Made by a program: the position numbers and the translations under genes. A model generated the notes under the pieces. That model was not told the origin of the DNA and did not search any database. It was given only the letters and a program-made list of their open reading frames with translations. From contig JAHLKH010000074.1 of the NCBI GenBank assembly GCA_025526915.1, positions 1 to 64,000 of the forward strand: a DNA stretch of 64,000 nucleotides. Direction: 5' to 3'. How positions within the stretch are numbered: the stretch's first letter is position 1; each line of letters starts with the position of its first letter. The stretch comes from Entophlyctis helioformis (Eukaryota > Chytridiomycota > Chytridiomycetes > Chytridiales > Chytriomycetaceae). Positions 22,592 to 57,607 of this stretch are shown here, one piece after another.

Positions 22592-23398
22592 ATGACCATC
22601 ACGCTGCAGTCGTTCCCCGCCGGTCCCAACGGCTTCTTCCGCGCGCCGGTCCTCCTCACCGGCCCGACCGAGGCCGTGCTCATCGACGGCGGCTTCACGC
22701 TCAGCGACGGCAAGGCGGTCGCCGACGCCATCACGGCCAGCGGCAAGACGCTGACGACCATCTACATCAGCCAGAGCGACCCGGACTACTACTTCAGCCT
22801 GCTGCCCATCAAGACGCTGTTCCCCAACGCCAAGGTGCTTGCGGCGTCGGCCACCATCGCCGCCATCAACGCCAGCGTGCAGAAGAAGCTCGACGTGTGG
22901 GGTCCGCAGCTCAAGACCAACGGCCCGCAGACGCTCGCCGACGTTGTGATCCCGACGGCCTTTGACGGCACGTCGCTGACCGTCGACGGCGAGACCATCG
23001 ACATTGTCAGCGTGTCGATCCCCAACCGTCGCTACCTGTCTGTGCCGAGCCTCGGCGCCATCGTGGGCGGCGTGCTGGTGTTCTCTGGCGTGCATGTGTG
23101 GGTGGCCGACACCCCCACTCCCGAGCAGCGCGCCGTGTGGGTCGGCATCCTCGACGGTATCCTCGCACAGGGACCCAAGGTTGTTGTGCCGGGCCACATG
23201 AAGCCCGACGCGGCCGTCGGGGTGGATGCCGTGCGGTACACGCGCGATTACCTGGTTGCGTTCGAGGCGGAGCGCGCCAAGGCAGCCACCAGCGCCGAGC
23301 TCAACGCCGCCATGAGAGCGCTGTACCCGACTGCCGGCATGGAGGTTGCCCTCGACATTGGCGCCAAGGTCGTGCTCGGCGAGATGAAGTGGGGCTAA
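22592..23398 (+). CDS. Metallo-beta-lactamase-fold protein, copy 1
   Basis: Intronless, 268 aa, no signal peptide. The fold is suggested by an early LIDGG strand-turn (as in LIDTG), a central motif position and a late VVPGHM. Where active enzymes have HxHxDH, this protein reads SQSDPDYYF, keeping only the Asp, so classical zinc hydrolase chemistry is doubtful. I recall close bacterial proteins with the same SQSDPDYYF signature, so this is probably a family trait and horizontal origin is plausible (inference). Its high GC, strong codon bias and own TATA box suggest active expression. It differs from copies 2 and 4 at few residues, e.g. Thr for Asn near the C-terminus. Substrate unknown. Confidence 0.8.
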   Translation: MTITLQSFPAGPNGFFRAPVLLTGPTEAVLIDGGFTLSDGKAVADAITASGKTLTTIYISQSDPDYYFSLLPIKTLFPNAKVLAASATIAAINASVQKKLDVWGPQLKTNGPQTLADVVIPTAFDGTSLTVDGETIDIVSVSIPNRRYLSVPSLGAIVGGVLVFSGVHVWVADTPTPEQRAVWVGILDGILAQGPKVVVPGHMKPDAAVGVDAVRYTRDYLVAFEAERAKAATSAELNAAMRALYPTAGMEVALDIGAKVVLGEMKWG

Positions 23399-24355: not shown

Positions 24356-25846
24356 CTATGCCTTGTCGGGATATGCCTGTCGACCAACAGTCAGCCAGCT
24401 TCCATGGCACTCATCACAGCAGATGCACACTCGTCTCACTCACCTCCTTGGAATACGCGACCAGATCCGTGAACGACGGTCCAAGGTTGACCGTCAACGA
24501 ATGGAACTCTTCGGGGGCCAGCTTGCTTCCCTTGTTGTAGATGACGTATCCATGGCGATCAAAGAACTCGAGCATGTCCGTCGGCTTGCGACCAACGCGG
24601 ATGATCCAGTTGGGTGCATACTCAAAGAACACCTGGTCAACGCCGTATGTGTCAAAGAGCGTCGTGGCACCTTCCAGCGCAAAGATCTCGTAGCCCTGTG
24701 CGATGTGAGGCGGGGATGCAGGAATGAACGGATGCATGGATGCCAGCATGTCAGTCGCCAGCCTGTTCACGCTCAAGCATCACTCATCGCTGCGTGCCTG
24801 GCAGTCCATCTTCATGTATGCGATCCGCTCCTTGACGACCGTGTCGATCGGCACAGTGTGGATCTCTTGTGCAAGGAACTTTTCGGGTCCGCCCTGGAAG
24901 ACCCCAACCGACATGATGTTGCCGGGCTGGCTGCCGTCGGCCCGTGCACCTTCGTTCTTGGGCAGGATGATGCTGTTGCCGTAGTTGCCAATCTCAGAGT
25001 AGATGGTGCTCGAGTCTTCAACCACGCCTGCTCCTGCCGGCACAAGGTACACCGACGACTCGCCCGACGTCTGGAACAGACCCTCGTCGATGTTGGCCTG
25101 GATGCTTGCTGCGAGCATCTTGTAGTTGGACGGGGCCGGCTCGAAGCTGTACACTCGGAATCCCATCGCAGCAAAGAAGAGCGTGCACGAGCCAATGTTG
25201 CCACCAATGTCGACCTGCGTTTCCATGTCAGTGTCAAGGATCAGCATCCAGGTTAGTGTCAAGGATCAGTGTCAAGGCCAGCGTCACATCCCATGCTGTG
25301 GATGCTTCGCTGCAACGTACCACAGTCTTGGACTTGCCAGGCGTGTTCTTGATCAGCTCGAGTGCCTCCTTCTGCTTGATGCAGTCCTTCCAGAACCCAA
25401 ACTCGCGAATCTCGGAGCTCACGACATCAAAGTTGTGGTGCAGATACATAAAGTACGATGGCTCGCTGCGTGTCTTGAACTTCTCGTACGTCGTGTCTGT
25501 GGTGCGTCCATGGCGGATGTGGCAGCAGCAGTCAGCTTGCTGTGCAGGATACACAGCTGCAGGACACACAGCTGCACGACACACGCACAACAGCAACACG
25601 CGAGCATGCTCACTCACTGTCATGCACGACTTCGTTGGACAGCTCGCGCAACAGCTTGGCGCGCCAAAAGTCGGGCGACTGGTATCCCGACGACACTGGC
25701 GTGACTGGACGGGCAATGAGCTTGTTGATGTGAGGGTGCCATGCCCAGATGGCCGAGAACAGGACTGCGCACGCGACGGCAACGAGCACGGCTGCGCGGC
25801 GGTTGATGGCAAAGCCAGCAGGAAGAAGCTTGCGTCCCTTTGACAT
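24356..25846 (-). CDS. FkbM-family methyltransferase, copy A
   Basis: SAM-dependent O-methyltransferase family. Five exons: 25846-25618, 25496-25321, 25214-24798, 24695-24444, 24376-24356; 364 aa. A single hydrophobic segment (about residues 18-37) after a basic N-terminus makes a type II membrane anchor. The SAM-binding core shows VDIGGNIGSC, then FEPAPSN, then GYEIFALEG. The donor after exon 3 is GC (CAG|GCACGC), forced by phase and by the family motif, and identical in copy B. The last exon codes only AYPDKA. TATA box 85 nt upstream. It is convergent with the beta-lactamase-fold gene and divergent from the GT31 gene. Acceptor substrate unknown; glycan O-methylation is inferred from the neighbours. 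Confidence 0.8.
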
Positions 25847-25929
25847 GACGGTGTGAGCAGAGTCACGGATGGATGGATGGATGGATGGATGAAGGCAAGG
25901 ACAGGCGCGACAAGATCATTCCATCTCGG

Positions 25930-25936
25930 TTTTATA
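25930..25936 (-). promoter_or_regulatory. TATA box of FkbM gene copy A
   Basis: TATAAAA on the minus strand lies about 85 nt upstream of the ATG; the same element and spacing occur in copy B. Confidence 0.55.
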
Positions 25937-26119
25937 TGGCACGTCGTGCCAAACTCCGCTGTTGGGCTGGTGGGCAGCCAGCAAAATCCCATCGCAACAA
26001 TGATCACTCATCGAAATGCAGTCCCGAGCGTCCTTCCAAGGCTTGTTTGCCCGCCTGTCTCGCCCACAATAAGAATCGCCAAACCCACGACCCCTGCGCA
26101 CTTTGCTGTTTCGACCACA

Positions 26120-27212
26120 ATGCTGTCTGCAAAGGCGCTGACGATACAAACACGGGTCGTGGCGCTGCTGGCTCTGCTGGTCGTCCTGCTGGTCGGCGGA
26201 TACTTGTGGCGAGATGAGACGCTGGAAGCGCCATACAGCGTGATAAGGAAGCTTGCCGGCGCACCCGCATCTGTGCCAACACGCATCTGTTGGCGTCCAC
26301 CTATCCCGACGCCGTCAACAAGTCAACTGCAAAGGCACTTTGGGACCACAGCCACGATCCAACAGCGTTCGAATGCCCGCGACACAAGCGGCTGCTCTTG
26401 GCCGTGCTGTCAACAGCATCCTCGCGGTCCGCTCTGCTTCGCCACTTCCTTCGCACATTCTACGGCTTCTCTCGCCCCGTCTCGACCGTTGATCTGCTGT
26501 TCATCATTGGCCGTCCCAAGGTTGACGAGAAGGACCCAGCCATCCAGCAGCGCCAGATCGCCAACCTGCGTCTCGAGCAGGCGATCCACAACGACATTGT
26601 CGTTCTGGACATGGACGAAAACATGAACGAAGGCAAGACGTACATGTCGTTCAAGACCGTCGCGACATGGCGTCGGCTGGCACTGGCCGCACATACGACT
26701 TTGTGGCCAAGTGCGACGACGACACGTTTGTGCACCTGCCACGGCTGTCCATCTACCTCGATCGTCTGAGCAGGAACACGACCGACGAGCATCCCAACAT
26801 GTACATTGGCCGGCAGCTGACCGACCAGTTCCCGCACCCGTTCCCCAATCCGGCCATGTCTGGCATGATGTACATCCTGTCGTGGGATCTCGTCGTCTGG
26901 CTGTCCACGTCGCCATTGCCGCGCGACGACATGTATGGCCACGAAGATCGCAAGATGGGAGACTGGCTCGCAGGCAGCGGCCGGCCGATCAAGTACATCA
27001 GCAACGACAACGACTGGTTCGAGCATCGCTGGTACGGACAAAACTGGGCCAAGGAGTACTCTGACAACTTCATCGCCGTGCACCGATGCAAGGACATTGA
27101 CTGGCACTGGGACGCCTTGAGCCATGCCTTTGGCAGCCTGCTTCCGCAGCGACCTCCACAAAACTACCGACTGGACTCTACTCCCGATTGCAACATTGTT
27201 TATCCTTCATAG
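26120..27212 (+). pseudogene. GT31 galactosyltransferase-like gene, frame broken
   Basis: Starts with a type II anchor (about residues 11-30, a Leu/Val run) at the ATG 26120. The GT31 pattern follows in a second frame (LLFIIGR, then NDIVVLDMDENMNEGKTYMS, then FKTVATW) and finishes in a third: YDFVAKCDDDTFVHLP with the DDD metal motif, and HEDRKMGDWL in the place of the family EDV motif. The first frame change (about 26240-26320) could be an intron with a weak GTGATA donor; the second, near 26670-26680, has no splice sites and looks like one missing base after ATGG. Either a recent pseudogene or an assembly error. Would transfer a hexose in the Golgi if intact. Confidence 0.7.
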
Positions 27213-27591
27213 CCAAAGCCAAATACACCTGCAAATGCCACATGGTGCTGTGTGTCTCCCCCATCCCGTTTATTCAGTGTCGGCAGTCATGATTATTATG
27301 TATGCTGTAAAACGCAGTCAGCCAGCCAAGAAATTCGCTCATTGGCCAGCATTGCGGAGTTGGATATTCGCATCGATGCGACAACAGCCGCTGCAACAAC
27401 AACCAAGCGTGCGCAGCCAAGCGGCGGCGCATCTCCGTTCAATCCAGCCGTCAAGTGTGGCAAGGCGGCTCGATGCCACAACACACGCTCCCTCCAACAA
27501 CAAATGCACTGCCCCTGCCTTAAATTCAACTCGAGGTGCCCAAGCAGCTTGCAACATTTGGGACCGCTCGCCGCATTCCACGCCGTCCATC
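27213..27591. other. Intergenic region, nothing recognised
   Basis: 379 nt between the GT31 gene and the METTL24-like gene. No conserved frame, repeat or clear TATA element is visible. Confidence 0.4.
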
Positions 27592-29014
27592 ATGAGCAAA
27601 GCCAACATGCGCATGACACTGTTGGTGTCGTTCCTCGCTGCCCTGATTGTCATCTTCACGCTGAACTCGAAGCGCGAGTACTCGGCTCTGGACGATGGCA
27701 AGCCGCTGTCCCAAAGCGCGTCCCAGTCGACGTTTCCGGGCTTCTCTCGCCCTGTGCCGGCTCTTGACCGCGAGGTGGCCGAGCTGTCGCAGTGCATTAT
27801 GAAGACAGCCGACTTTGACCGCAACGAGGTGTGCTGGTCCGACTTCAAGCACAAGCAGATGCTCAAGGTCCTTGACCAGCTGGACAGCGCACCTCGTGAG
27901 CATATCGAGCACTTTGCAAGCATGAACGTGTGTATGGCTCACGCAGCCTGCTCTGCCGACTGCATTGTGTGTTTGTGCGATGGCTGACACGGATCCGTGT
28001 TGCAAACAGTCTCACTCGGCACACGCGGCCATGATCCCGACTCATCAATGCGACATGCTCAAGATCCAGCGGTGAGCAGTTGCTGTCGATGCGCTGTCGA
28101 TGCGCTGCCCATCCGCTGTCCCATCCATGCATCCACTGTCCATCCACTGCACCGATGTATATCTGACCACTGCCTGCCATGCCAGGTTTGGCTCCACAAA
28201 CGAGATCGCGTATGCCAACAACCCGTCAGACAGACACCCCGACGGCCCCAAGTGGATGTGCCCCGAGTACCTGCAGACAAGCGAGAACGAGCAATGCACA
28301 ATCTTCTCCATTGGCAGCAACGGCGACTTTAACTTTGAGGAAGCCATGCACAAGTTTGTTGGCAACAAGTGCAAGGTATGATGCCGGTGGCAACCACACT
28401 TCATGAGTGTGCGTGTGTGTGTGTGAGTGCGGATCGACTGACTCGCCGCCTGCTGCATCCCAAGATCTACACGTTCGACTGCACTGGCAACTGGTCCAAC
28501 CCCACGACCGAGTTCCACCCGTGGTGTGTCTCCGACACCAACGACGTCGTGGACGGCCGCCAGTACAAGACTCTGACGACGATGATGAAGGACCTCGACG
28601 TCAAGAAGATCCACCTCTTCAAGGTCGACGTGGAAGGGTGAGACACCGCTGGCACTCTTGCTGCACACGGCTCGCTGCATACTTGAGCTGACGCACTGCG
28701 ACCCATCTCCTCTCATCCCGCCACATCCGATCCCATCTTACTCACTCACTCCATCATCCAGCTACGAGTTCAAGATGTTCAAGTCGCTCGAGAAGGAGCC
28801 ACTCGCGTCCCTCCCCAAGCAGATCCTGCTCGAGGTTCACTGGGGAACCAGATGGCCCGGCCAGCAGTCCTTTGACCAGGACAAGGAGACTTGGCTGCCG
28901 TATGCAACGTCTTTCTACCGCGGCATCGACAAGATGGGTTACAGGATCGCGCTTCGAGAACGCAACATTTACAACGACTGCTGTGCTGAATATGTCCTGG
29001 TTCGTGATATCTAA
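27592..29014 (+). CDS. METTL24-like (Methyltransf_22) methyltransferase
   Basis: Five exons: 27592-27927, 28010-28071, 28186-28375, 28465-28637, 28762-29014; 337 aa, all GT-AG with matching phase. N-terminal anchor at about residues 8-23, then a Ser-rich stem. The domain pattern FSIGSNGDFNFE, FDCTG, FKVDVEGYEF matches the METTL24-type branch of FkbM-like methyltransferases. A luminal type II topology is implied. It is not a close paralog of the FkbM gene at 24356-25846; the two share only the general fold and the GYE motif. Substrate unknown; its setting among Golgi glycosyltransferases suggests sugar O-methylation. Confidence 0.8.
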
Positions 29015-29274
29015 TGAAGTGACGTCTCTCGTCTCGTATGCCTTGCGTGCCATCGTCCTTCGATGACTTGTGTGTCTTGCCGTTCATCCCATACCGATGT
29101 TTGAACTGTGGTTGTCGCAATCTCGGCACGACGACGGCGGCTTGGATCGCTCGGGTCGTCTCTCTCCTGTCTCTCTCACTCTTTCTCCTTCCACCTTCCC
29201 TTCCTCCCTCTCCTTCTCCCCCCATTGCTGCACACATACACCAGATGCCATTCACAGGATGCTGCGTTCATTGA

Positions 29275-30411
29275 TCAGTCCAGCTCGCCTTCCACAAACC
29301 GAGCAACGCCGCGGGTGAAGCTTGTTTGGCGCTCGAGGATCTTTGCCACTGTCAAGTCCTTCAGGTACTCTTCCGCAATGTGGTGCCAGGCGTGCCACAG
29401 CAGCTGCTTGTACATTCGCCGGCCGTCGCCGTCCACAAACGACTCGCCGCCAAACACCCAGCTGGTGCTGTTGTGTGCCAGCTGGACGCCGTGTGGCTCC
29501 CATGTCGGGTAGAAGAAGCGGCTGTGATGCACAACGCGGATCCGCTCTGGGTCCTCGAGCCACATCTTCTTGGGCAGATGCACCGAGTGCTCGGCCCATT
29601 CGGTGGACTGGAAGTCGCGGTAGCTGTTGAGCCAGTCGGTCATGAACGAGTGGCCCGGCGTGGCAATGATCACCGCATTGCACAGTCCAAACGCTCCACC
29701 GAACCCCTCTTCGCCAAGTGTCAGGCCAGGTGTCTTGCTGTAGTACTCGGCCGGGAACGGGTGGAAGCTGATGACGTCCATGTCCATGTATATGCCGCCA
29801 TACTTGAGAATGGCTTGCATGCGCACCTGCGACGCAGACGAGTGCGTGTGAGCATCACGAACACATACACTCAGATAGCATGCGGCTACATGCATGGCTG
29901 TCGTCTTACGATATCGGCCATGTGGGCAGCCTCGACGAGCTTGTTGCCAAACACGCTCTCGACAGGCTGCACTTGAACGAGCGTGATGTACTTTTGCGAC
30001 CGATCCCACCACTTGCCCGTGGGCTTGTACACGTGGTAAAAGTAGATCGCCTCTGGTTTGTGGACCATAAAGGCAGACTTGCAGCACCGTGTCAGCAGCC
30101 AGCAGATTTAGAGTGCCACGCATGTCGTGAGTGTTGCCAGCAAAGCACCAACGCAAGCAGCACACCTTGATGGCAATGTAGTGCAGCAGCGTGAACTTTG
30201 GGTCTGGCTTCAGGCCATGGATGAAGTGGATGATGTTGGGCACGCCGTCGTCGTGGCTGGTGCTTATTGGCGGCAGCTGTGGCAGCATGGCGTCTTCCAT
30301 GACAACACTGCTCGCTTCGCGGACCTCTGTCCACAGTGATGCCACAAGCAGGATCATCACGAGGACGGTGCCAAACATGGCACGGTGCAGAAGCGATGGG
30401 AATTTGGACAT
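29275..30411 (-). CDS. GT32-type DXD glycosyltransferase 1
   Basis: Three exons: 30411-30166, 30077-29910, 29826-29275; 321 aa. Membrane anchor at about residues 10-26, then the family opening PNIIHFIHG, and the DXD motif in KYGGIYMDMDVISFHPF, typical of the Gly_transf_sug (GT32/A4GALT-like) group, which uses nucleotide sugars with Mn2+. FNG-type features are absent. The C-terminus ends in an Asp/Glu-rich tail. Its 5' side, about 0.5 kb upstream, meets a copy of the spacer repeat with CCAAT boxes. Confidence 0.8.
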   Translation of the reverse strand: MSKFPSLLHRAMFGTVLVMILLVASLWTEVREASSVVMEDAMLPQLPPISTSHDDGVPNIIHFIHGLKPDPKFTLLHYIAIKVCCLRWCFAGNTHDMRGTLNLLAADTVLQVCLYGPQTRGDLLLPRVQAHGQVVGSVAKVHHARSSAACRERVWQQARRGCPHGRYRKTTAMHVAACYLSVCVRDAHTHSSASQVRMQAILKYGGIYMDMDVISFHPFPAEYYSKTPGLTLGEEGFGGAFGLCNAVIIATPGHSFMTDWLNSYRDFQSTEWAEHSVHLPKKMWLEDPERIRVVHHSRFFYPTWEPHGVQLAHNSTSWVFGGESFVDGDGRRMYKQLLWHAWHHIAEEYLKDLTVAKILERQTSFTRGVARFVEGELD

Positions 30412-30925
30412 GGCTGTGAGTCGAGACCGGCGAAGGATGCGTCTGGGCTGTTGAGGGTGGCGACCGAGACGTTCAAGGAACGCACGGAAAGACGGGGTTG
30501 AGGAAGACGCGGAAGAAGTGATATTGAGACCAGAACGCGATATGGATGCGATGTGGCTGGGACGCTGTGCTCGAACGGACGGGTGATTGGACGCTGGATG
30601 CAGATGGGTCATACGAGTGTCGACGGAGGCTGAATGCAGAGGACAGCCAGCCAGCTGTGGATGGAGATGCGACTGTGGGTGACGATGAACGTGATTGGTG
30701 ATTGGCTGGATGGCGACGGGAGAGTGACGGTTGCAGACACTTGGCGGCACCAGGTGGGATCAAGTTGCAGTGTGGACTGCCACTTGCTGAGACACGAAAC
30801 ACAGTCAAGTGTCCAGACTCACTCGAGCCACGCCGATGCGAACATCTGGCCCGACTGAAACGAGTTTCAACGAGATGCTGGGGTTGCAGATGTGAACCGA
30901 CAACATCGACGGTCATGATCAGGCG
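30412..30925. other. Upstream region of GT32 gene 1
   Basis: 514 nt between the GT32 start codon and the spacer repeat. No gene supported. The far end shares GCGTCGTTGTGTTTGACAAG with the region upstream of the second GT32 gene (near 35717), so both GT32 genes have the repeat on their 5' side. Confidence 0.4.
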
Positions 30926-31868
30926 ATGCGTCGTTGTGTTTGACAAGCGGACAGACACGTTCAAGCTGGCACTGCCGAATTCTCATTGGCTTGTCTGGCT
31001 GCAGCGACGACTTTGGTGTTGCTGGATCTGGACCCAACTCCGCCGAATTCTCATTGGCTGGCTTGATGGAGAGTGTTGCTGGATGTGGCTGGAGTGGCTG
31101 GCTGCTTGGCCCATCAGGGCAGACACTGCAAGCGAGGCAGTGTGGCATCGACTGCGACAATGGCCGTGCATGTCTCAGTGTCACGCATCGCCTGCTCAAA
31201 CGGCTCCACATCAGCGATGATGGGCTGAGAGTGGATGCAAGGATGACTGCGACGCTTGCCAGCAGCCAACACTGCACTTGCATGGTTGATGTGATCACCA
31301 CACAACAATCAATGCCAGCCAACCATCCATCTCAGTCGGAGTTTGGCAGAGTGTCGGCCATGGACAGACACAAGAAAAGCATTGATTGGCTGGCTGGTGA
31401 GTCAACTCATCGTCGGAGTTTGAGTGAGATTGTCACTTGTGGTTGGACGGCCAGTCTGGCATCCATCGACTGTGCTGCCAGTCGCAGGCGTGCGAGTCGC
31501 AGACGTGTGTGTGTGTGTGTATGTGTGTGTGTAGCAGGCAGGCGATCCAAGCATTGGCTGCATGTGCATGCGCTGACTGCAAGGAGTGCCAATGACGACA
31601 TCCGATCAGTCGCAATGGAGCAGATTGTTGAGCAGTTGCTGTGAGTGCATGTGCCGTGCCATCCGAGTGACTGCTTGGTGCAGCAGCAGTCTGGAGAGCC
31701 GCCTGGAGAGCAGTCTGGAGAGCAGCCAGACAACAAAGAAAGGCAGCAGAGCAGCTTGCATTGTGTGTGATGGGTTCATTGGGGGATTGATATATACGGA
31801 TGCTCATGATCGGATGTGATGGGCGAGACAGAGTGACAGACTGACTGACGGACAGACAGACGGCATGC
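30926..31868 (-). repeat. Five-copy spacer repeat, copy 2
   Basis: Inverted relative to copy 1. Two ATTCTCATTGGCT elements lie at about 30979 and 31044. A (GT)n run sits near 31505-31530 where copy 1 has none, and the other end runs into the 3' side of the beta-lactamase-fold gene. Confidence 0.8.
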
Positions 31869-32675
31869 TTAGCCCCACTTCATCTCGCCGAGCACGACCT
31901 TGGCGCCAATGTCGAGGGCAACCTCCATGCCGGCATTCGGGTACAGCGCTCTCATGGCGGCGTTGAGCTCGGCGCTGGTGGCTGCCTTGGCGCGCTCCGC
32001 CTCGAACGCAACCAGGTAATCGCGCGTGTACCGCACGGCATCCACGCCGACGGCCGCGTCGGGCTTCATGTGGCCCGGCACAACGACCTTGGGTCCCTGT
32101 GCGAGGATACCGTCGAGGATGCCGATCCACACGGCGCGCTGCTCGGGAGTGGGAGTGTCGGCCACCCACACATGCACGCCAGAGAACACCAGCACGCCGC
32201 CCACGATGGCGCCGAGGCTCGGCACAGACAGGTAGCGACGGTTGGGGATCGACACGCTGACAATGTCGATGGTCTCGCCGTCGACGGTCAGCGACGTGCC
32301 GTCAAAGGCCGTCGGGATGACCACGTCGGCGAGCGTCTGCGGGCCGTTGGTCTTGAGCTGCGGACCCCACACGTCGAGCTTCTTCTGCACGCTGGCGTTG
32401 ATGGCGGCGATGGTGGCCGACGCCGCAAGCACCTTGGCGTTGGGGAACAGCGTCTTGATGGGCAGCAGGCTGAAGTAGTAGTCCGGGTCGCTCTGGCTGA
32501 TGTAGATGGTCGTCAGCGTCTTGCCGCTGGCCGTGATGGCGTCGGCGACCGCCTTGCCGTCGCTGAGCGTGAAGCCGCCGTCGATGAGCACGGCCTCGGT
32601 CGGGCCGGTGAGGAGGACCGGCGCGCGGAAGAAACCGTTGGGACCGGCGGGGAACGACTGCAGCGTGATGGTCAT
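31869..32675 (-). CDS. Metallo-beta-lactamase-fold protein, copy 2
   Basis: Intronless, 268 aa, intact. Carries the same SQSDPDYYF and VVPGHM segments as copy 1; differs by only a few residues (Ile for Val in AVWIGIL, Asn in YPNAG). The near-identity across high-GC coding sequence points to recent duplication or gene conversion. Expressed in the opposite direction to copies 1 and 4. Confidence 0.8.
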   Translation of the reverse strand: MTITLQSFPAGPNGFFRAPVLLTGPTEAVLIDGGFTLSDGKAVADAITASGKTLTTIYISQSDPDYYFSLLPIKTLFPNAKVLAASATIAAINASVQKKLDVWGPQLKTNGPQTLADVVIPTAFDGTSLTVDGETIDIVSVSIPNRRYLSVPSLGAIVGGVLVFSGVHVWVADTPTPEQRAVWIGILDGILAQGPKVVVPGHMKPDAAVGVDAVRYTRDYLVAFEAERAKAATSAELNAAMRALYPNAGMEVALDIGAKVVLGEMKWG

Positions 32676-32768
32676 TGCTGGTTGTGGGATTGTGGTTGTT
32701 GGTGTGGATTGCAGGTGGTTGGCTGTGGAGAGCGGTGGTTTGGAGCAGAGCAGGCAACCGGGCAGCCG

Positions 32769-32776
32769 CTTTTATA
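32769..32776 (-). promoter_or_regulatory. TATA box of beta-lactamase-fold copy 2
   Basis: TATAAAAG on the minus strand, the same distance from the ATG as in the other copies. Confidence 0.55.
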
Positions 32777-33055
32777 TCGCGGTGTCTGCAGTGTCTGTGC
32801 CACCAAATCCGTTTTGCCGACACGCACGCAGCCGATTGGCCACATCAGCCGGCTGGCTGGTTGGTTGGCTGGTTGGTTGGTTGGTTGGCCACAGCAGCCG
32901 GTTGGTTGGATGCGAGCAAGTGTCTGCCGTGAGCGGCCACCAGCCACGCAACGCAACAGCCGCTGTGTGGCTGCCGGCTGGCCACCAGCCGGTTGGCTGT
33001 CGGCAGGCTGCATGATCCGCATTGCACGAGCAGCAGCAGCAGTAGTCGTCGGATG

Positions 33056-33180
33056 GATGTCTGCATGCCTGTCCATGGATCAGCAAGCCACTTCCCGTCG
33101 ATCATCTCTGCCAACGGCTGCTTGATCATTGCCGCCTGTCCCAAGCTGCTCATCAAGGACGCTGATCTCCAAGTCCCATC
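33056..33180. repeat. Conserved outer segment of the beta-lactamase-fold unit
   Basis: About 100 nt around ATCATCTCTGCCAACGGCTG is shared with about 45860-45960 and, inverted, with about 60140-60240, but is absent beyond about 22180 in copy 1. It marks the outer limit of the duplicated unit. It is open on the plus strand in all three copies, but amino-acid changing differences make coding doubtful. Confidence 0.5.
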
Positions 33181-33260
33181 AGGTGTGCGCTGACGTACAA
33201 ACAGGTTCATTCTATCGTCGTTGCCCGACTGAACACCTCCCTCCATGGCGACTCTGGCGG

Positions 33261-34162
33261 CTACAGACCGACGACCTTGTTCTTTTCGTAGTCGAGCAGA
33301 AGGTTCTCAAAGCCAGAGTACTTGCCGACAGACGGGAAATGCACCAAGAGATCGCCAAGCTGCCAGATGCCGTCGGGTTTGCTGCTGCACACGCCGGGGT
33401 GGTATGCGTTGATGTCGCGCTGCGGCAGGGACTTGAAGTGGCTCATGGCGTCGGGCATGGCTTGCAGCACCTCGAGCATGGCTGCGTTCTCTTCCCAGTA
33501 CGTCGGTGTCGCAATGCGGACCATGTAGACTGCGTGCCGTGTGTCAGATCTCGCATGAGCAGAGAGCCATGCGGGCTGGTGTCATGCATACCTTCTTCGA
33601 AGAACTGCTGCGACCACTTGGACACGCGGACAAGGAAGCTGCCGGCATTGAGGATCACGTTACAGTCGGGCGACGCTATGAGATCAAAGCTGTCGTCGAG
33701 CAGGTCGGTCACTTTCTTGGAGTGGTTGGTGATCATCGTGTCCATGTCCAGCGACCAAATCCACTCGTGCCGCGCAGCCTTGATATGATTCGAGATGGCG
33801 CGGATCTTGGACCACACAGCAGGCCGCTTGTCGTCCAGCAGCTCTCGCTGGAAGTACAGGCCGTACCCGTGCTTGGCGGCATACTGCTGCTTGTTCTTGA
33901 TGCTGATGTCTTGCCACGTTGGGTATCCCGGCGGCGTGTTGAGCAGCACGATGCCCAGTCGGTTGCGGTTGAGCTGCTGCTCATAAGTCAGGCCGGTCTG
34001 GAACGAGTCGAGCGTGGTCCGCACGACGGCATGCAGCGACGGCAGCGACGCCATGTACATGGACAGACAGACAATCGCCGCAACGAGAGCGGCGCGAATG
34101 ATGGCTTGCGGCTTCTTCATCAGTCGCAGCTGGCCTGCCCATCCCGTTACTCGAATCATCAT
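33261..34162 (-). CDS. GT34-family glycosyltransferase (GMA12/MNN10 type)
   Basis: Two exons: 34162-33592 and 33529-33261; 279 aa, phase 1. Anchor at about residues 20-38. Family landmarks: GLYFQREL, VWSKIRAI, the DXD motif in WIWSLDMDTMITN, then DCNVILNAGSFLVR, WEENAAM and a late VHFPSVGK. GT34 enzymes are Golgi alpha-galactosyl or alpha-mannosyl transferases acting on N-glycans or polysaccharides; which sugar is used cannot be told here. All key motifs are present. Confidence 0.88.
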
Positions 34163-34464
34163 GATGGACTGTGTGTCTGGCGGTGCGGCTTTGTGGAAGT
34201 CGGTGCGGCTTTGTGGCAGTCGGTGAAGACGGCGACAACAGCCTCTTATCCGGTCTGTGTTTGTGTATCCTTGGCGGCCCGTTCGTGTTTTCGACGCGTG
34301 TTTGTTATGCTGGCATTTTGTGACATTGCGTGACACGCACGCATTTGTCGAGCTTGTTGTTGCACTGGACGCCAATAAAATCACCAGCCAGCCTGCCTGC
34401 AAGCTATTTTGTGCTTGCCTCCAACCAATTGGCAATCAATATCCTCGATACATCGACTGGTTTA
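34163..34464. other. Intergenic region, nothing recognised
   Basis: 302 nt between the start of the GT34 gene and the stop of the second GT32 gene, both on the minus strand. An AATAAAA near 34375 is on the plus strand and is not linked to a supported gene. Confidence 0.35.
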
Positions 34465-35639
34465 TTATACATCGCCCTCCTTCTTGTCTTCCTCCTTCTT
34501 GTCCTCCTTCTTGTCCTCCTTCTTGTCTTGCTCCTTTGGCGTCTCGTCCTTGTGCAGTCCCCGCTCGGTATGGATGTGCGGGTTGTCGTATCCCCACGAA
34601 TGCGTCCAGAACGTGATCGCAAGAGTGCGGTCGGGAGTAACACCCTCCTTCCACTCGGGCTTGCGTGGCTTGTCGTCCACAATCGTGGGCACACGGTCGA
34701 GCGGGAACAGGGGTGGCGAGCGAATGAACTTCTCCTTGCACTTTTGCTCGTTGAAGTCGTTGGACTGACCGGAGCAGATGCCGCCGTGAGTGGATCCGTT
34801 GTGCTTCCAGCTGTACGGGAAGATGATCTCGGGACCAAAGATGGTGATGGGACTCTGCTGGTCGAGCGGCAGTTGGCGGTAGGCAAGATAAGCGTTCTGG
34901 ATCATGACGGGGCCGGCGACCTCCTCGACCCACGACTCGAGGTGGAACTTGCTCAGCCGCGACTCGATGTGTTTCATGCAGAACAGCCAGAACGGATGCC
35001 GCGGACGAGAGGCCATCCACGCATTGGGGATCGAGTCGGAGAAGTGCAGGATGTCGTCAACAGCTCCCATCGATGCAAGGATGAGCTCGTGGCCATGGAG
35101 GTAGTCGTCCAGCGGCGTGATGGAGAGGACGTCGAGGTCCGAGTACACGCCGCCAAAGACGTACAGATACACCAGCCGAGACGCGTCGATGCGCATGATG
35201 TTCTTGGGCAGGGCGTCGTATGTGGGGAGGAACCACGGCACCTTCTTCTCCACAAGCAGCCTGTTGTCGCTGTCGGTCCATATCTTGTGCATCCACAGCG
35301 GATGGTTCTTGAGCCACGACGACGACCATGCCTCGAATTTCTGGCACGCCGGCCAACGCAACGCAGCGTTCATGGTGTGTGTTTGCTGTCAGCACTTGCG
35401 TGCCACCTTGGCAGCACGATAGCCGCACGACAGCAGCACGGCACACTCACCTTTGGAAGGACAGTGCTCTTCCAGCTCTGGTGGATGATGTGGGGGATTG
35501 AACGATCCACACTGCCAGCGTCCCTGTGAGACCGGTACCTTGCGCTGCTCAAGCTGATCAGCGAGCGAACCATGAAGATGAAGACTGCGGCGGCAGCGAA
35601 CAGGATGCCCAGCCTCGAGATCCGACGAAGGACCTTCAT
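34465..35639 (-). CDS. GT32-family glycosyltransferase 2 (OCH1/SUR1-like)
   Basis: Two exons: 35639-35451 and 35340-34465; 354 aa, phase 0, joining STVLPK to KFEAWSSSW. Anchor at about residues 10-26. PHIIHQSWK is the classic GT32 opening, and the DXD motif lies in GGVYSDLDVLSITPL; HPFWLF and the late FWTHSW also fit. GT32 members add mannose to N-glycans (OCH1) or to inositol phosphoceramide (SUR1/CSH1). The C-terminus is an unusual run of DKKE repeats, highly charged and probably not part of the fold. Confidence 0.88.
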
Positions 35640-35716
35640 TCCACACGTGGCGTTCGCGAGTTTCGTGGTAACAGGATAAAGTGAGTGCCTTGCGTTCTTA
35701 TGGTTGAATGCATGGA

Positions 35717-36680
35717 GCGTCGTTGTGTTTGACAAGCGGACAGACATCCTCACAGACACTGCTGAATTCTCATTGGCTTGTCTGGATGCAGCGACGACTC
35801 TGGTGTTGCTGGATCTGGACCCAACTCCGCCGAATTCTCATTGGCTAACTTGATGGAGAGTGTTGCTGGATGTGGCTGGAGTGGCTGGCTGCTTGGCCCA
35901 TCAGGGCAGACACTGCAAGCGAGGCAGTGTGGCATCGACTGCGACAATGGCCGTGCATGTCTCAGTGTCACGCATCGCCTGCTCAAACGGCTCCACATCA
36001 GCGATGATGGGCTGAGAGTGGATGCAAGGATGACTGCGACGCTTGCCAGCAGCCAACACTGCACTTGCATGGTTGATGTGATCACCACACAACAATCAAT
36101 GCCAGCCAACCATCCATCTCAGTCGGAGTTTGGCAGAGTGTCGGCCATGGACAGACACAAGAAAAGCATTGATTGGCTGGCTGGTGAGTCAACTCATCGT
36201 CGGAGTTTGAGTGAGATTGCCACTCGTGGTTGGACGGCCAGTCTGGCATCCATCGACTGTGCTGCCAGTCGCTGGCGTGCGAGTCGCAGACGTGTGTGTG
36301 TGTGTGTATGTGTGTGTGTAGCAGGCAGGCGATCCAAGCATTGGCTGCATGTGCATGCGCTGACTGCAAGGAGTGCCAATGACGGCATCCGATCAGTCGC
36401 AATGGAGCAGATTGTTGAGCAGTTGCTGTGAGTGCATGTGCCGTGCCATCCGAGTGGCTGGTTGGTGCAGCAGCAGTCTGGAGAGCCGCCTGGGGAGCAG
36501 CCTGGAGAGCAGCCAGACGACAGAGCAAGGCAGCAGAGCAGCTTGCATTGTGTGTGATGGGTTCATTGGGGGGGATTGATATATACGGATGCTCATGATC
36601 GGATGTGATGGGCGAGACAGCCAGACAGACAGACAGAGTGACAGACAGAGTGACAGACAGAGTGACAGACAGACAGGCTG
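35717..36680 (-). repeat. Five-copy spacer repeat, copy 3, without its beta-lactamase-fold gene
   Basis: Same orientation as copy 2. It ends in an expanded (GACAGACA) run at about 36612-36676 and then passes straight into unrelated sequence instead of the gene seen beside the other copies. The break is therefore in the microsatellite just 3' of the gene. Confidence 0.75.
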
Positions 36681-37950
36681 CTGCGGTCTTGCGGGACGTC
36701 GTGGCCAGGCTCTACGACCTCCAGCTGGAGCAGCAGCAGCTCGAGCAGACGATCGGCGACCTGCTTGTATCCATCGACCAGCTCGAAGCCACACTTCGAC
36801 GGCGCAAACTCACCCATCGTTTGTGCAACACCAGTCGCGGCTGCAGCACCAGCACCACCGACCTCGCCAACCGTTCCATCTGCACCGGCCCCAGCCATAT
36901 GCAGCCTCAACCGCTCTGCATGCAGCAGCTGCCTGACCAGCCCGTCCGCAGCCCCGGCCGCTCTGGCCCTGGCAGCACGCCTGGCCTGACGCCGCGGCAT
37001 CAGCAGCATCGTTCTCCCGTTCCGACCGCCACTGCTCTGGCCTCGCCTCAGCAGCACCGACCGACCCAGCAGCCTCTGGCACCGGCCAGCCCGGCCAGCA
37101 GGGTCGAGCACCCGTCCGTCCCGTCACCGTCTGTCCCGCTCTGCAGCCCAGTCGCCAGTCCTGCAGGCTCGCCCATCCAGCCGCCTGCAGCGCGCGCCGA
37201 TTGGCCAACGCGATCTGATTGGTCAACGCGTGCCAATCGGTCAGCAGCAGCTGATTGGTCGGCACCAACCGATTGGTCAGCCGCGTCTGATTAGTCGGCA
37301 TCAGCCGATCCATCGCCGATGCCAATCGATCTGCCATCTGCACCAGCAACAACAGCCGCTCTGCCCAGCCTCTCGACTGAGCAGCACCAAGCCGACATCG
37401 CCGCACCTGCCCTTGCCAAGAAGCTGCACTGCCTGTCGACACACTCGCCCTCGCACCCGTCTCAACTGTCTGCAACGCTCCATCTGCCTCACCCGTCTCC
37501 CGAGCCGCCAACTGAACCGACTGAGCTGCACCAACTGCAGCCAGAACAACAACCGCCGTCTGCTTACCCGTCTGATCTGCCCTTGCAGATGCTGCAGACC
37601 CAGCCGCGTCAGCAATCGCAGCCTCTCAACCGCTCAACCGACACTGCCTGCACTTGGCCGGCTACCAACTCAGCAGCGTCAACTACTGTCACCGCAACTG
37701 ATCGACGTGGGCCAGATACATGTCTATGCTCTGCCCACCACCTGTCTGGATCGCCATTGCATGGGATTGGCCTGTTGGCTCGCGCCATCCTGTCTGTTCT
37801 TCTGGATTCAGCTGCTCCAACGCGACCACCACCAGAGCCGCCAGATCCGCCAGATCTGCCTCCACAGTCGCATTGGATGCCTGCTGGTCTTTGTCACAGC
37901 AGCCACCTGGCTGCCATGTGAGAGAACAGAAGGGTGGTCTGATGGTTGAG
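36681..37950 (+). other. Coiled-coil plus Pro/Gln-rich open sequence
   Basis: The plus strand first encodes a Leu/Gln-rich heptad stretch (LYDLQLEQQQLEQTIGDLL, about 36712-36770) and then Pro/Gln/Ser-rich sequence in two overlapping frames (36605-37294 and 37230-37949). No start codon context, splice sites or known domain make a firm gene. It could be a remnant of a retroelement gag or of a regulatory protein. An array of ATTGG (inverted CCAAT) motifs occupies about 37198-37290. Confidence 0.35.
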
Positions 37951-37982
37951 CATGTCATGAAGAGCAAATGTTGTTCAAAGAG

Positions 37983-38108
37983 GAGATGTGAAAGCAGCAG
38001 ATCTGTGTCTGTACCATTGTGACAGTCCGTGCATGGGACTGTGTTCCCTGTGTGCATGCGCGGACTGTCATGATGGTACAGACACAGATCTGCTGCTTTC
38101 ACATCTCT
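37983..38108. repeat. Long near-perfect inverted repeat (hairpin)
   Basis: Arms of about 54 nt at about 37983-38035 and 38054-38108 pair almost fully (both contain GCAGCAGATCTGTGTCTGTA or its complement), leaving a loop of under 20 nt. A few mismatches lie near the ACCATTGTGAC part. It is not within a supported gene. Confidence 0.8.
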
Positions 38109-38341
38109 TCATTAAACCAAAATTGTTCATCAACATGCAGCAAGTCACGTGTCTGTTCACGTGACGCGTCTTCCATAAGAATTTGTTGAATTGAATATAC
38201 TGTCGGTCTACCAGAACTGCTTCGGCATTGTCAGTGGCATGCTTGCACATGTGCATCGTCTACTGGTGGTGCATGCAGGCCGCTGACTCGCTGGTACCGC
38301 ATGATATGCTGGCCACAAAGGCGTGACCATTCTTCTTAGAA

Positions 38342-39974
38342 ATGAGGCGTCTCCTGAGGCAGGCTGCATTGGTGCTGATGGCCAGCTTGGTAACGCTGGC
38401 CCTTCTGCTCGTGGCCACAGACAGCAACAACACTATCATCGAGGCAAGCAGTGGCATGCTGGACGACATCAGCAGCAGCTTTGTGCAGTCCAAGAGCAAC
38501 CTTCTGCCTGAAAACGAGACCAGCCGCTCGCCTGAACTCAAGGAGGCTCGAGCAGCCTACTCGCTCAAAACCGGCCGTCTGCCGCCACCAAACTACGACG
38601 GCTGGTACAGCCGTGCTGTTGCCAAACAGTGCTTCATCCATGAGTACGACCAGATATTCGACGACCTGGCACCTTTCTACCAGCTTGGGTCCGCCGAGTA
38701 TCGCAGACGCTTGGAGGTCATCAACGCTCGGCCGGATCACATGTTTACTGTCAACATTGTCAACGGCAAGACTCGTGCTGGCCAGTCTGGTGTTTTATGG
38801 AAGAAGATGATCGCCAAGGCAAGCCTGCTGGAAAGCCTGCTGGCATGCATGTCTGATCAGCAGTGCGGTGCAGTGTGGTCGGCTGACACTCGCTCTCTCT
38901 TGGCAATCGCAGGTTGTTGCCAACGTTCCAACGACCAAGGTGTTTCTAAACGGACTGGATGAGCCGCGGATCCTCTTCAACATGGATGCCAACACAAGCA
39001 TTCCTGCCGAGGCTGCTGTCACTCCAAAGGATGCCGACTGGCTCACACTGCCACGCGGCGAGCACCAAGCGTTTGTTGCAAAGCAATGCCTGGTGCACAA
39101 CCCAAAGAAGCCCAACGACACCTCAATGGCAAGCATGGCTTCCTGATCGAGCCAGACCTGTGGTCCTACTCTACGTAAGTCGCATGTGCAGTACGCCTTG
39201 GACCTGTCCTGACACGTTTCCTCGACAGACATCTGCTGCCTGTGCTCTCGCAGACGCGCATCACGCCATGCTTTGCCGACATCCTTGTCCCATCAACGTA
39301 CTACTACCCAGTGGGAGCACCCGACATATCCAAGTTGCCTTCCTGGACGGAGCGCCAGTCCAAACTGTATTGGCGCGGATCGACAACCGGCGGCCATGCC
39401 ACCAACGGCAACTGGCGCGAGTTTCACCGCCACCGCCTGATTATGATGACCAAAGACCAACCAGCGCTGTTCGATGTGGCATTCACCAAAATCACGCAGT
39501 GCGATCCAAAGGACTGTAAAGATATCGCCAAGGAGATACCGATATCCCCGCCATCGCCGTTCACGGATGTCTACAAGTACAAATACGTGCTTGACATTGT
39601 AAGAGGGCGGCTGCATGTTAATGCCTTCCTCTTCCACAGACTGACGTGGCTGTGGTGTTGCGGATGGGCAGGACGGCAACTCATTCAGCGGTCGCTATCT
39701 CAAGCTGCTGACGAGCGGCGCACTCGTGTTCAAGATGACCATCTTCAGCGAGTTCTTTGATCGGTGGCTTGTGCCGTACAAGCACTACATCCCAGTGCAG
39801 CCCGACCTGAGCGACCTCGAGGAGAAGGTGCTGTGGGCAAAGGAGAACGACGCTCTCGCGCAGCAGATTGCACGCGACGGCCGCGAGTTTGTGCTGCGGC
39901 ACATTAACGAGGAACAGACCGAGTGTTACCTGGAGCTGCTTCTGCTCGAGCTGGCTCGACTGGGCTCTGATTAG
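38342..39974 (+). CDS. GT90 (CAP10/rumi-like) glycosyltransferase, one frame break
   Basis: Four exons: 38342-38818, 38913-39174, 39229-39598, 39672-39974. Anchor at about residues 8-25. The family patterns are clear: RILFNMD, KLYWRGSTTGG, NWREFHRHRL, and DGNSFSGRYLKLLTSGALVFKM, the nucleotide-sugar site. Intron 1 has a GC donor (AAG|GCAAGC), fixed by phase and by the protein match. Within exon 2, near 39126, the frame must shift by one missing base between NDT and GKHGFLIEPD; no splice site is there. GT90 enzymes add xylose or glucose in the secretory pathway (e.g. cryptococcal capsule CAP10). Functional only if the break is an assembly error. Confidence 0.78.
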
Positions 39975-40183: not shown

Positions 40184-43100
40184 GCCCCCCTTGACGAGAG
40201 ATCCCAGTGTCATGGTTCCTCAGCACAAGAGAGAGAGGCAGCATGAGCATTACCAAGCCGAACGCCTGCAATACGATTGCTACAACGCAGGGCAACAGAG
40301 GCGTTGCAATCCACTGGAACAGGCACCGGCGAGTCGGTTGAGGTGTGGGTGGTCGGGCATCCAATAAAGCAGCCAAGTCCTGGTCCAGCAGATCAGGTGC
40401 AGTCTCGCGCAGCTCAGCCTCTGAGCGGTACTCGTTGTGTGTGGTCCGTAACCGAGGTACGAGACCACAAAGGAGCGGTGGCCGTTGCGAGCGACCTTGT
40501 GTCCCACAATCGCGTCAATCTCCCATTCAGCTGCTGCAGGGTCATCAGCAAAGGCGACTGCAGGCGGCTGAACAGGCAGTGGCCGGCCAGGGAAAGCGGC
40601 TGCCGGATCGCGGTACGGCTTCAGCAGACGGACGTGGAACCACGGATGCAGACGCTGCATGGTCGGATGCAGAGCCAGCTTGCAGTTGAGACCATCCAGT
40701 GCGGCATTGACCTCTGTGATCGGGAATGGACCCAACCAGTTGGGCAGGAACGCATTGGGGCGATGCGTGTCGGTGGGCCACACAATGCTGGCGGCTTGCA
40801 GCATGACCATGTCGCCGACAGCGTAGGCGGGAGCATCTCGGCGGTGGCGATCGGCGTTGCGCTTCTGTCGTTCTTGAGCCTTGGTCAGGTTGGCTGTGGC
40901 ATCCACGCGAGCCTTGTCAATGGCAACGAGCAGGTCGCGGACAGCAGGCGGCGACGATGCTGCAGGTTCGTGTGGCAGCGTGCGAGGCTCGAGACCAAAG
41001 GCGAGGAAGTACGGAGCATAGCCGGTCGATGCACTTGGTGCAGAGTTGAGGGCGTGGACAGCCGCATCCAGCATGTGCTCCCAGTTGCTGCCGCGGTGGT
41101 TGGCGTACTTGGACAGCAGGTCCTTGAGCGTGCGGATGGTGCGTTCGGACTGGCCGTCGGTCTCCTGGTGGCGGGCCGTTGCCATGACCTGCTCAATGTC
41201 CAGCGCCGCACAGAGCGCCGTCCAGAAGGCAGACAGGAACCGAGCGTCGCGGTCCGACACGATGGACGACGGCAGGCCGTGGCCAGCAAGCACCATCGGT
41301 TGAGGAACAGCGCGGCAAGTCCTCGGCAGTCGCATCGCGTCGCGTCGGCACGCACTTGACAAGCTTTGTCAGGCGATCCACAACCACAAACAGAGCGTCG
41401 TTGCCCTCGTCCGGCATGGGCAGCAAGGCAATGTCGCAGGCCACAGACTGGAAGCGGTCGGCAGGGATGGGCAGCGGGTGCAGCAGACCGGCAGGAGCCT
41501 GTGTCGACGAGTTGAACCGCTGGCAGGCGTCGCACGAGCCCACAAAGCGGCCGACCGACGCAGCCATGTCCGGCCAGTAGTAGTGCGCACGCAGACGGCG
41601 AGCAGTGCGGCTTGTCCCTGGTGGCCAGCATGAGGCGGCTCGTGGGCCAAGGTGAGCAGGTCGGTGCGCACTTGACCCTCTGGGATCTACATGCGGCCCT
41701 CGTGGAACCACAGGCCGTCGACCAGCTCGAGCTTGGCGGCCAACTGACGCTCGTGTGCAGCAGCATCAGCAGGATCAGCCTTCCAGCGAGCGACGTTGAG
41801 CAGGAACGGGTCGGCAGCCAGCAGCGGACGGATGCGAGCAGCGATGCCAGAGGTGACCGTCGTCAGGCAGACACATCCACCTCGAGCGGCAGCGGGCACA
41901 GTGCGGAGCAACAGTCACATGGCGCGACAGCATGTCAGCCAGGTGGTTCTCACCGCCCTGGATGTACTGGACCCGCATCAAACTCCTGCAGCTCCATGAT
42001 CCAGCGAGCCTGGCGGTACGACAGCTTGGGCTGCGTCGAGATCCAGCGCAGCGATGCATGGTCGGTGTGGATGGTGAAGTGCACGCTGAGCAAGTAGTGC
42101 CGGTACTTGTCGCAGGTGTCCACGATCGCCAGCATCTCGCGCTCGTGGGTCGGGTAGTTGCGTTCCGCATCGTTGAGCTTGCGCGAGTAGAACGAGACCG
42201 GATGGATCTTGGCCGTGCCATCTGCCTCGACATGCTTCTGGCCAATCCAGCCACCAATGGCAAACTCGGATGCGTCCGTGTACACGTGCGTCTCCAGCGA
42301 CGGGTCAAAGTACTTGAGCACCGGAGCGTTCGTGATGGCGTCCAGAATAAAGTCCACAATGGCCCACTTGGCCTCGTCCATCACAAAGGGCACGTCCTTG
42401 CGCAGCATGTCCGTGAGCGGCACACAGATGTCGGCGTAGTCTTTGATGAAATCCTTGACCCACACGACTTGCCCAATGAAGCGCCGCAGATCGCCAACAG
42501 ACCCAATGATTGGCCGAGTCTTCAGTGCCAGCCGATGCTTGTCCTGGATTGAGTAGCCATCACCCAGCAACAGATGACTGCAGAACTCGAGCAGCGACGA
42601 GAAGAACTCGCACTTGGACATCTTCAGGCGGAGCGATTCGGCGCGCAGACGACGGAACACTTCCTCCAGGTGCAGCAGGTGGTCTGCATTGGTCTCCGAG
42701 TAGATCAGGATGTCGTCCATGTAGGCGACAACGCAGACGTCCAGCAGGTCGTGGAAGATGCGGTTCATCATGGCGTTGAAGGTGGCAGGAGCGTTGCAGA
42801 GCCCAAAAGGCATCACCTTGAACTCGTAGTGGCCGTAGCGAGTCACAAACGCCGTCTTGGGGATGTCGTCCTCATGGATGCGGATGTTGTAGTAGCCGTC
42901 ACGCAGATCGACCGACGACATGAACGGCTTGCCCGCGACGCGGTCAATGAGCGACTGGATACTGGGCATCGACGCGCGATCCTTGACCGTGATGTTGTTC
43001 AGCCCACGATAGTCGATGCACAGACGCAGACCGCCGTCCTTCTTCTTGGCGATCACGATACCCGCGGCAAATGGCGACACCGAGCCACGGATCATGTCGC

Positions 43101-43958
43101 GCGCAGCGAGGTCGTCCAGGAACGCCTTGACAGCATCCTGGTGCTCAGTCGGCAGCTCGCGCAGGGCGGCGCGGCGGCGGCTTGGAACCAGGCACCAGCT
43201 TGATACGATGATCCTCAGGCCGCGACGGCGGCAGGTTGCCCGGTTGGAAGAGGTCCTGGAACTGGATCAACAGCGGATGGACAACCTCCGGCTGCGTGTC
43301 CAGGCTCAGATGGTCGAGTGGATCCGCCTCGTCAATCGCCGCCATGGCCGCGTCGGTTGCCGTATCTTCGTCCCCGTAGCGGTCAGGGCCATGATCTCGA
43401 CATATGATGACTCGTCCGCATGGAAATCCTCGTAGCTGACGAACTCAATGCCGTGCTGCGCAGCAATGGCCTCAAGGGACATCGGAGCATGGTCGCAGGG
43501 TGGTTCTGGTGCTGGTTCGGGGTGTCGGGTCAAGTGTAGGTGCCGCTGAGGGGTGCAGATGCCATACAAAATCGCGCCCCATGGCCTTGTGGTGGAATGC
43601 AAACGAGCGGTCGGCCATATCGCCCTTGGTGATCACCACCTCAGCAAACCACGGCGTACCCAGGATCACATCGGTGCTGATGTCTGCGACAAAGAACTGC
43701 AGCTGCTGCGCGTATTCCCCAACCGCGAGCGCAATGGTCACCGCTTCCGCAACGCGATGGCACTCCTGGTTGGCATACTCGACCGTGAACGGCTCAATGG
43801 AGCAGGTCTGTGCACCAATCCGACGCGCGAAACTGCGCGACATCACCATACCAGATGCGCCAGTGTCCAGCAGGGCCACGCACGGGAACCCATCTGCTGT
43901 TGCCATGACGTGCGATCGGAAAAGCGAGCGGACTTGTGGCATGGGTTTAGACAAGCAT
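40003..43958 (-). mobile_element. Truncated Ty3/gypsy chromovirus
   Basis: Minus-strand pol in broken frames. In order: aspartic protease (LLDTGASGMVMS, about 43866), reverse transcriptase (CIDYRGLNN, FMSSVDLRDGYYNI, VVAYMDDILIYSE, about 43090-42500), RNase H (HVYTDASEFAIGG, SRKLNDAERNYPTHERE, about 42300-42050), zinc-binding HYYWPDM...CDACQRF (about 41585-41520), integrase core (SDRDARFLSAFW, TDGQSER), and a chromodomain-like end (EWEIDAIVGHKV, about 40525). Frames are interrupted near 43.35, 43.15, 41.96 and 41.3 kb. Gag and the 5' LTR are missing: the element is cut at about 43958 by the spacer repeat. Non-autonomous as it stands. Confidence 0.9.
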
Positions 43959-45492: not shown

Positions 45493-45589
45493 TGCTGGTT
45501 GTGGGATTGTGTGGTTGTTGGGTGGATTGCAGGTGGTGGTTGGCTGTGGAGAGCGGTGGTTTGGAGCAGAGCAGGCAACCGGGCAGCCG

Positions 45590-45597
45590 CTTTTATA
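45590..45597 (-). promoter_or_regulatory. TATA box of beta-lactamase-fold copy 3
   Basis: TATAAAAG on the minus strand, conserved in place although the gene is frameshifted. Confidence 0.5.
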
Positions 45598-46135: not shown

Positions 46136-46331
46136 TGCTGATCGACGATGACCATGACAGCCAAGGCCACTGCTGTTCCCCATCACACCCGCAATGCCAA
46201 GCTTGGTTGTTTCGAGTGCCAGACCGTTTATTCTCATTGGCAATCGTTGCAATACACTAAATGTGGAAGGGGGGTGATGATAGTATGTAGAAGGTAACAG
46301 ACCGATCAAGCCAGGTAATATGCTCGATCGC

Positions 46332-48009: not shown

Positions 48010-48072
48010 TGAGCTGGTTGTTGAGCTGCTGTGACTGACTGGAGAGCACGACAGGGCGGGATGCCGGGCTGG

Positions 48073-49321: not shown

Positions 49322-49357
49322 CTCGCCCCACTTTGCCCGCCAAGCCCAATCGCAACC

Positions 49358-57566: not shown

Positions 57567-57607
<41 letters not shown>

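Follow-up and report, generated by a model that had tools for sequence, protein, structure and literature searches.

The window analyzed here spans bases 1 to 64,000 of contig C74 (JAHLKH010000074.1; 118,486 bp) from the chytrid Entophlyctis helioformis (assembly GCA_025526915.1; 29.57 Mb, 482 contigs). It contains a cluster of seven genes for glycosyltransferases (GT) and methyltransferases with predicted membrane anchors, extending from the stop codon of an FkbM-family methyltransferase gene (position 24356) to that of a GT90 gene (position 39974). The grouping of these genes exceeds chance by a wide margin, even though the families were picked after the cluster had been seen, and the five proteins that are intact in the window are, jointly, under amino acid constraint. 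The best reading of the locus is that its products would jointly synthesize a glycan, to which we assign a probability of about 0.5.

Gene content of the cluster

The seven gene models were built manually by reading splice sites. The FkbM gene (24356 to 25846, minus strand) encodes 364 amino acids in five exons (25846-25618, 25496-25321, 25214-24798, 24695-24444, and 24376-24356) with one GC-AG intron, and it is transcribed divergently from a single-exon GT31-type gene (26120 to 27212, plus strand), with 273 bp between the two starts. These are followed by a METTL24-like (Methyltransf_22) methyltransferase gene (27592 to 29014, plus strand; 337 amino acids, five exons), a first GT32-type gene (GT32a; 29275 to 30411, minus strand; 321 amino acids, three exons, DxD motif in GGIYMDMD), a GT34-type gene (33261 to 34162, minus strand; 279 amino acids, two exons, DxD motif in SLDMD), a second GT32-type gene (GT32b; 34465 to 35639, minus strand; 354 amino acids, two exons, DxD motif in YSDLD), and a CAP10-like GT90 gene (38342 to 39974, plus strand; four exons), whose first intron is the second GC-AG intron of the cluster models. 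The GT32a model equals the annotated protein BC831DRAFT_512775 (100% over 321 amino acids); the annotated FkbM and METTL24-like proteins have 213 and 268 residues, compared with 364 and 337 in our models. GT31 and GT90 are frame-broken in the window; the GT31 frame is interrupted by single-base differences and is open in a second copy of the cluster (C74:64172-65266; see below), whereas neither copy of GT90 has an intact frame, the breaks differing between the two.

All seven family assignments exceed the curated Pfam cut-offs: FkbM on PF05050 (5e-14; 53.2 bits, cut-off 22.7), METTL24-like on PF13383 (2.9e-24; 86.5 bits, cut-off 22.4), GT34 on PF05637 (2.6e-26; 93.3 bits), GT32a and GT32b on PF04488 (1.4e-8, 35.8 bits, and 2.2e-15, 57.6 bits), GT31 on PF01762 (1.7e-9; 38.2 bits, scored on the copy-2 protein), and GT90 on PF05686 (7.1e-21; 75 bits from exon 4 by itself). 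Exon 3 of GT90 by itself does not reach the PF05686 cut-off, and for exon 1 Pfam gives no GT90 match. Models and Pfam thus agree with a preliminary description of this DNA, which had placed the seven genes together within 16 kb and whose coordinates proved exact.

That description had also claimed short N-terminal membrane anchors for nearly all of the proteins, and hydropathy finds one in each of the seven: a 19-residue window with a mean hydropathy of 1.99 to 2.52 starts no more than 20 residues in (GT31 taken from the copy-2 protein, GT90 from exon 1). Later windows reach at most 1.37 in the stretches measured, which leave out GT90 exon 2, pointing to a single N-terminal anchor, as expected of type II membrane proteins, in all seven predicted products.

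Clustering exceeds chance

Outside C74, we found 15 loci of these families on 12 contigs (GT34, 2; GT32, 2; GT90, 1; Methyltransf_22, 1; FkbM, 3; GT31, 6), and no contig carries two of the families. These tallies are lower bounds; the Pfam count of FkbM missed both copies on C74 and is taken as a lower bound for that reason, the second C113 locus having been added from a separate search, and the GT31 search missed the frame-broken copy in the window. In 20,000 random placements of 22 genes (the 7 of the cluster and these 15), three or more shared a 15.6-kb stretch 30 times and four or more never did, compared with seven observed; with 150 genes, four or more did so in 50 of 5,000 trials and five or more in none. 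Since the other loci are scattered and never bring two families onto one contig, the cluster is not a product of chance, and the earlier remark that glycosyltransferase genes are usually scattered holds for these families in this genome. Nor is the cluster one amplified gene, since its sole same-family pair, GT32a and GT32b, is barely similar (38% over 26 residues).

Paralogues of single cluster genes occur elsewhere, with FkbM on C113 (84 to 87% nucleotide identity) and GT90 on C164 (about 90%). That other contigs hold a further cluster copy was considered and rejected: the flanks of the first C113 FkbM locus, the C164 GT90 locus, the GT34 loci on C69 and C179, and the GT32 loci on C41 and C192, taken over about 10 kb per side or as far as the contig reached, contained none of the remaining six cluster genes, and the first 10 kb of C40 had no match to cluster genes. 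Contig C281, which holds a METTL24-like paralogue, was covered over 3.5 kb only, and the flanks of the second C113 locus and of the GT31 loci on C238, C38, C174, and C335 were left out of this survey. The two FkbM paralogues on C113 (13501-14995 and 63070-64605), 84 to 86% identical to the cluster gene, share one orientation and are separated by about 50 kb, and the pairs of GT31 matches on C174 (22271-24431) and C335 (13175-15324), nearly equal in spacing and scores, look like two haplotypes of one locus.

A second copy and constraint on the proteins

Self-comparison of the whole contig places the cluster in a unit of about 22 kb (22286 to 44736, plus strand) that is directly repeated at C74:60303-81251, about 38 kb downstream in the same direction. 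The window holds the start of copy 2 (60303 to 64000, plus strand), with a hydrolase gene of the metallo-beta-lactamase (MBL) fold (60614-61420, plus strand) and FkbM (62382-63890, minus strand); the remainder runs past the window to C74:81251. The two copies align in four pieces of 12.3, 2.0, 5.3, and 1.3 kb, which are 97.0, 97.1, 98.2, and 93.7% identical, respectively; copy 1 contains 1,681 bases between 36515 and 38197, compared with 95 in copy 2. This copy-1 stretch (36516-38196), which lies inside the cluster, includes frames of low complexity and what looks by eye like a near-palindrome at about 38000-38100.

Divergence between the copies is 0.49% in exons (37/7,482), 3.8% in introns (52/1,353), 1.75% in intergenic DNA (37/2,114), and 2.1% in the retroelement part (74/3,519). 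The five gene pairs that are intact in both copies differ by 22 silent and 8 amino acid changes, giving a ratio of amino acid to silent divergence (pN/pS) of 0.10, and the departure from neutrality (one-sided binomial, 3e-9) is the ground on which we regard the five proteins as jointly constrained. FkbM, intact in both copies, has six silent and no amino acid changes; the charged C-terminal tail of GT32b differs in length between the copies.

The second copy could be a tandem duplication or the other haplotype, joined in by the assembler, in which case each chromosome would carry one cluster. Contig C285 (24,182 bp) aligns with C74 starting at base 1 (96.4 and 97.9% within its first 3 kb) and again at C74:21111-24281 (96.4%), where it ends 75 bases short of the FkbM stop; this colinearity, at 96 to 98%, was sampled at both ends, over 6.2 of 24.2 kb. 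C305 starts at C74:83012, 1.8 kb past copy 2, with 97.1% identity over 1.9 kb and then 87.6% over 1.0 kb. The two contigs have the appearance of second-haplotype fragments halting less than 2 kb from either side of the repeat region, and because their difference from C74 is as large as that between the copies (94 to 98% identity), copy 2 may be the other haplotype. Copy 2 has other neighbors, however, with a sugar transporter gene and its own MBL hydrolase upstream, and a join would need to bring in a spacer of 14 to 15 kb as well, part of which matches C55:87073-93053 in inverted order at 96 to 97%. The MBL hydrolase of C285 is also nearer to the copy at 22 kb (97.3%) than to that at 60 kb (96.9%), a small margin. 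We consider an assembly join a serious possibility, if short of an even chance.

Relatives of the cluster proteins and the role of the methyltransferases

Relatives were searched, with limited sensitivity, for three of the seven genes. The METTL24-like protein has relatives in Batrachochytrium (328 amino acids, 54 to 55% identity), Polyrhizophydium, Blyttiomyces, and Zopfochytrium, and it shares with the METTL24/Methyltransf_22 family both these Batrachochytrium relatives and its high PF13383 score. Named relatives of FkbM beyond Entophlyctis were found only in the chytrid Cladochytrium replicatum. This protein resembles the FkbM family in passing the Pfam cut-off and in those relatives; unlike the family, it has an N-terminal anchor, and its shorter annotated form scores 34.7 bits on the NCBIfam model fkbM_fam, under the cut-off of 37.7. 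For GT32a, 28 proteins were matched, with no named fungal relative except the protein itself, the sole other named match being a metagenome-assembled genome of Ignavibacteria; relatives also occur at 29 loci of a viral collection (best segments 25 to 46% identity). A viral origin was considered, but the gene has introns here, and the idea was set aside.

Most enzymes of the FkbM type O-methylate sugars or natural products. From their families, the two methyltransferases of the cluster would be expected to transfer methyl groups onto sugar. The predicted structure of the METTL24-like paralogue on C281, which is not the cluster protein, has a class I methyltransferase fold; FkbM (2py6) and the sugar O-methyltransferase MycE are two of the many class I methyltransferases that it resembles. 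Alternatively, the two enzymes might act on lipid, peptide, or carboxyl groups, so that the glycan, if any, would not be O-methylated. The C281 model matches many class I enzymes about equally well, including RNA 2'-O-methyltransferases, and neither the METTL24-like nor the FkbM protein has a solved-structure relative by sequence at E 0.01; among the titles and abstract beginnings seen, no paper addressed the substrate of METTL24/Methyltransf_22. Both enzymes are anchored like the adjoining glycosyltransferases, and this, together with the usual substrates of FkbM-type enzymes, makes non-sugar acceptors unlikely in our view.

A bacterial-looking hydrolase and surrounding repeats

The preliminary description had seen no unrelated housekeeping gene between the cluster genes. 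This needs correction, since an unrelated gene for a Vmh-like MBL-fold hydrolase (31869 to 32675, minus strand; 268 amino acids, intronless, bacterial-looking) lies inside, within a repeat of about 2.2 kb (30972-33178), as does a fragment of the hydrolase repeat (35759-36649). A second intact copy marks the left edge of the repeated unit (22592 to 23398, plus strand), and a further copy (44690 to 45492, minus strand) is frame-broken. At E 0.001 (eight matches in total), C74 has four open copies and one frame-broken copy and C285 has one, in two pieces in different frames; no genome matches were found beyond this locus and the allelic contig C285. Of 20 matches to the 2.2-kb repeat, 11 are short, and nine are full or partial copies, of which eight lie on C74 and the ninth on C285. 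Pairwise, the four open copies differ by five to seven silent and zero to two amino acid changes.

Bacterial relatives of the hydrolase, from alphaproteobacteria and others, are 63 to 70% identical over nearly the full length (among the best 80 of 287 matches), and the QSDPDYYF motif is kept in all 12 relatives aligned. The protein thus resembles bacterial Vmh-like MBL-fold hydrolases in identity and motif and differs in being multicopy on a fungal contig and in scoring 255.4 bits on the Vmh equivalog model NF040580, under the cut-off of 430, for which reason it is named Vmh-like only. It is also under the cut-off of PF00753 (Metallo-beta-lactamase superfamily; 18 bits against 22.7) and has no solved-structure relative by sequence at E 0.01. 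These similarities suggest that the hydrolase is likely of bacterial origin, the present genome being the only fungal one searched.

An inverted repeat of 5.4 kb (43959-49327 and 56776-62151; 97.9% identity) carries a major facilitator superfamily sugar transporter gene of 465 amino acids (46332-47729 and 58371-59768) adjoining a copy of the MBL hydrolase gene, and C55, C6, and the beginning of C391 hold more sugar-transporter DNA. Directly after GT90, retroelement-like frames (40280-43987) resemble reverse transcriptase, protease, and integrase by eye, with no family call; they occur in both unit copies and are 2.1% divergent. At 15994-16917 and 17346-18446, two adjacent frames encode what look, by eye only, like similar multi-pass membrane proteins. 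A subtelomeric position was rejected, with no run of three TTAGGG or CCCTAA units on C74.

Proposed joint synthesis of a glycan

GT34, GT32, GT31, and GT90 enzymes are Golgi transferases of hexoses or related sugars, and FkbM enzymes are O-methyltransferases. With similar anchors and adjacent genes, the seven products are most simply read as assembling and capping a single class of glycan. As single-anchor enzymes of type II style, they would reside in the Golgi, where GT34, the two GT32 enzymes, GT31, and GT90 might add hexoses in succession to a secreted or cell surface glycan, the common substrate and the order being our conjecture; FkbM and the METTL24-like enzyme could then cap the glycan by O-methylation with S-adenosylmethionine, provided that sugar is the acceptor. 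In the methylated-glycan interpretation put forward in the preliminary description, the part that stands is a real, nonrandom group of anchored glycosyltransferases and methyltransferases, five of them constrained, from families otherwise scattered.

Several points weigh against such joint work. The three genes searched have differing relatives, mild evidence that the set is not conserved. The upstream regions yielded no common word that clearly exceeded shuffles; the best, the low-complexity CAGCCAGC, occurs in four of six regions, compared with at most three in 200 crude shuffles, and a shared promoter word was rejected, the best words being no commoner than shuffled ones or only slightly commoner. 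The frame breaks of GT31 and GT90 may be sequence error or decay. In the Foldseek ranking for the C281 paralogue, Plu4895 and FtsJ come first and FkbM is not among the best 50 matches. Finally, a region rich in repeats and retroelements can collect genes that have no joint function.

This last point leads to an alternative in which a duplication hotspot, made up of MBL repeats, inverted sugar-transporter repeats, and a retroelement, gathered dispersed genes of separate pathways. The eight MBL-repeat copies or fragments on C74, the inverted 5.4-kb repeat, the spacer piece common to C55, the dispersed FkbM and GT90 paralogues, the differing relatives, and the two frame-broken genes would all fit. 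Six families in 15.6 kb far exceed random placement, however; the repeats do not consist of the glycosyltransferase genes themselves, and two of the families turned up together on no other contig. We therefore consider gathering without teamwork rather improbable, if deserving attention. A more elaborate version of joint synthesis, in which a dedicated, duplicated cluster makes one O-methylated Golgi glycan and the horizontally acquired, amplified bacterial hydrolase trims or de-esterifies that same glycan, seems doubtful to us.

Comparison with known fungal clusters and implications

One mark of a fungal polysaccharide gene cluster is several adjacent genes for carbohydrate synthesis grouped beyond chance, and the locus shows this mark. 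Among known systems, the nearest are fungal exopolysaccharide gene clusters, with the galactosaminogalactan (GAG) cluster as their model; the present locus would be a variant with other families. The GAG cluster of Aspergillus and other Pezizomycotina is described as having five co-regulated genes, encoding an epimerase, a glycosyltransferase, a deacetylase, a hydrolase, and a spherulin-4-like protein (PMC4817252). Both are sets of adjacent fungal genes whose products synthesize a surface polysaccharide and modify it chemically, as predicted from the genes in our case; unlike the GAG cluster as presented there, the present one has seven anchored enzymes of six other families, including methyltransferases, and no deacetylase among the seven (PMC4817252). 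Identity with the GAG cluster was rejected, since the seven genes fall in other Pfam families than the GAG gene set described there. Among the literature matches listed, no title or abstract beginning concerned this cluster.

Several invertebrates and fungi are reported to contain O-methylated sugars, which defense lectins target; to our knowledge, the eukaryotic enzymes that add methyl groups to sugars are largely unassigned. The pairing of two anchored methyltransferases with anchored glycosyltransferases supplies testable candidates for sugar methylation, one of them from a METTL24-like family that is also present in Batrachochytrium. The locus would also give an example of glycan genes clustered in an early-branching fungus, present as two near-identical copies or haplotypes.

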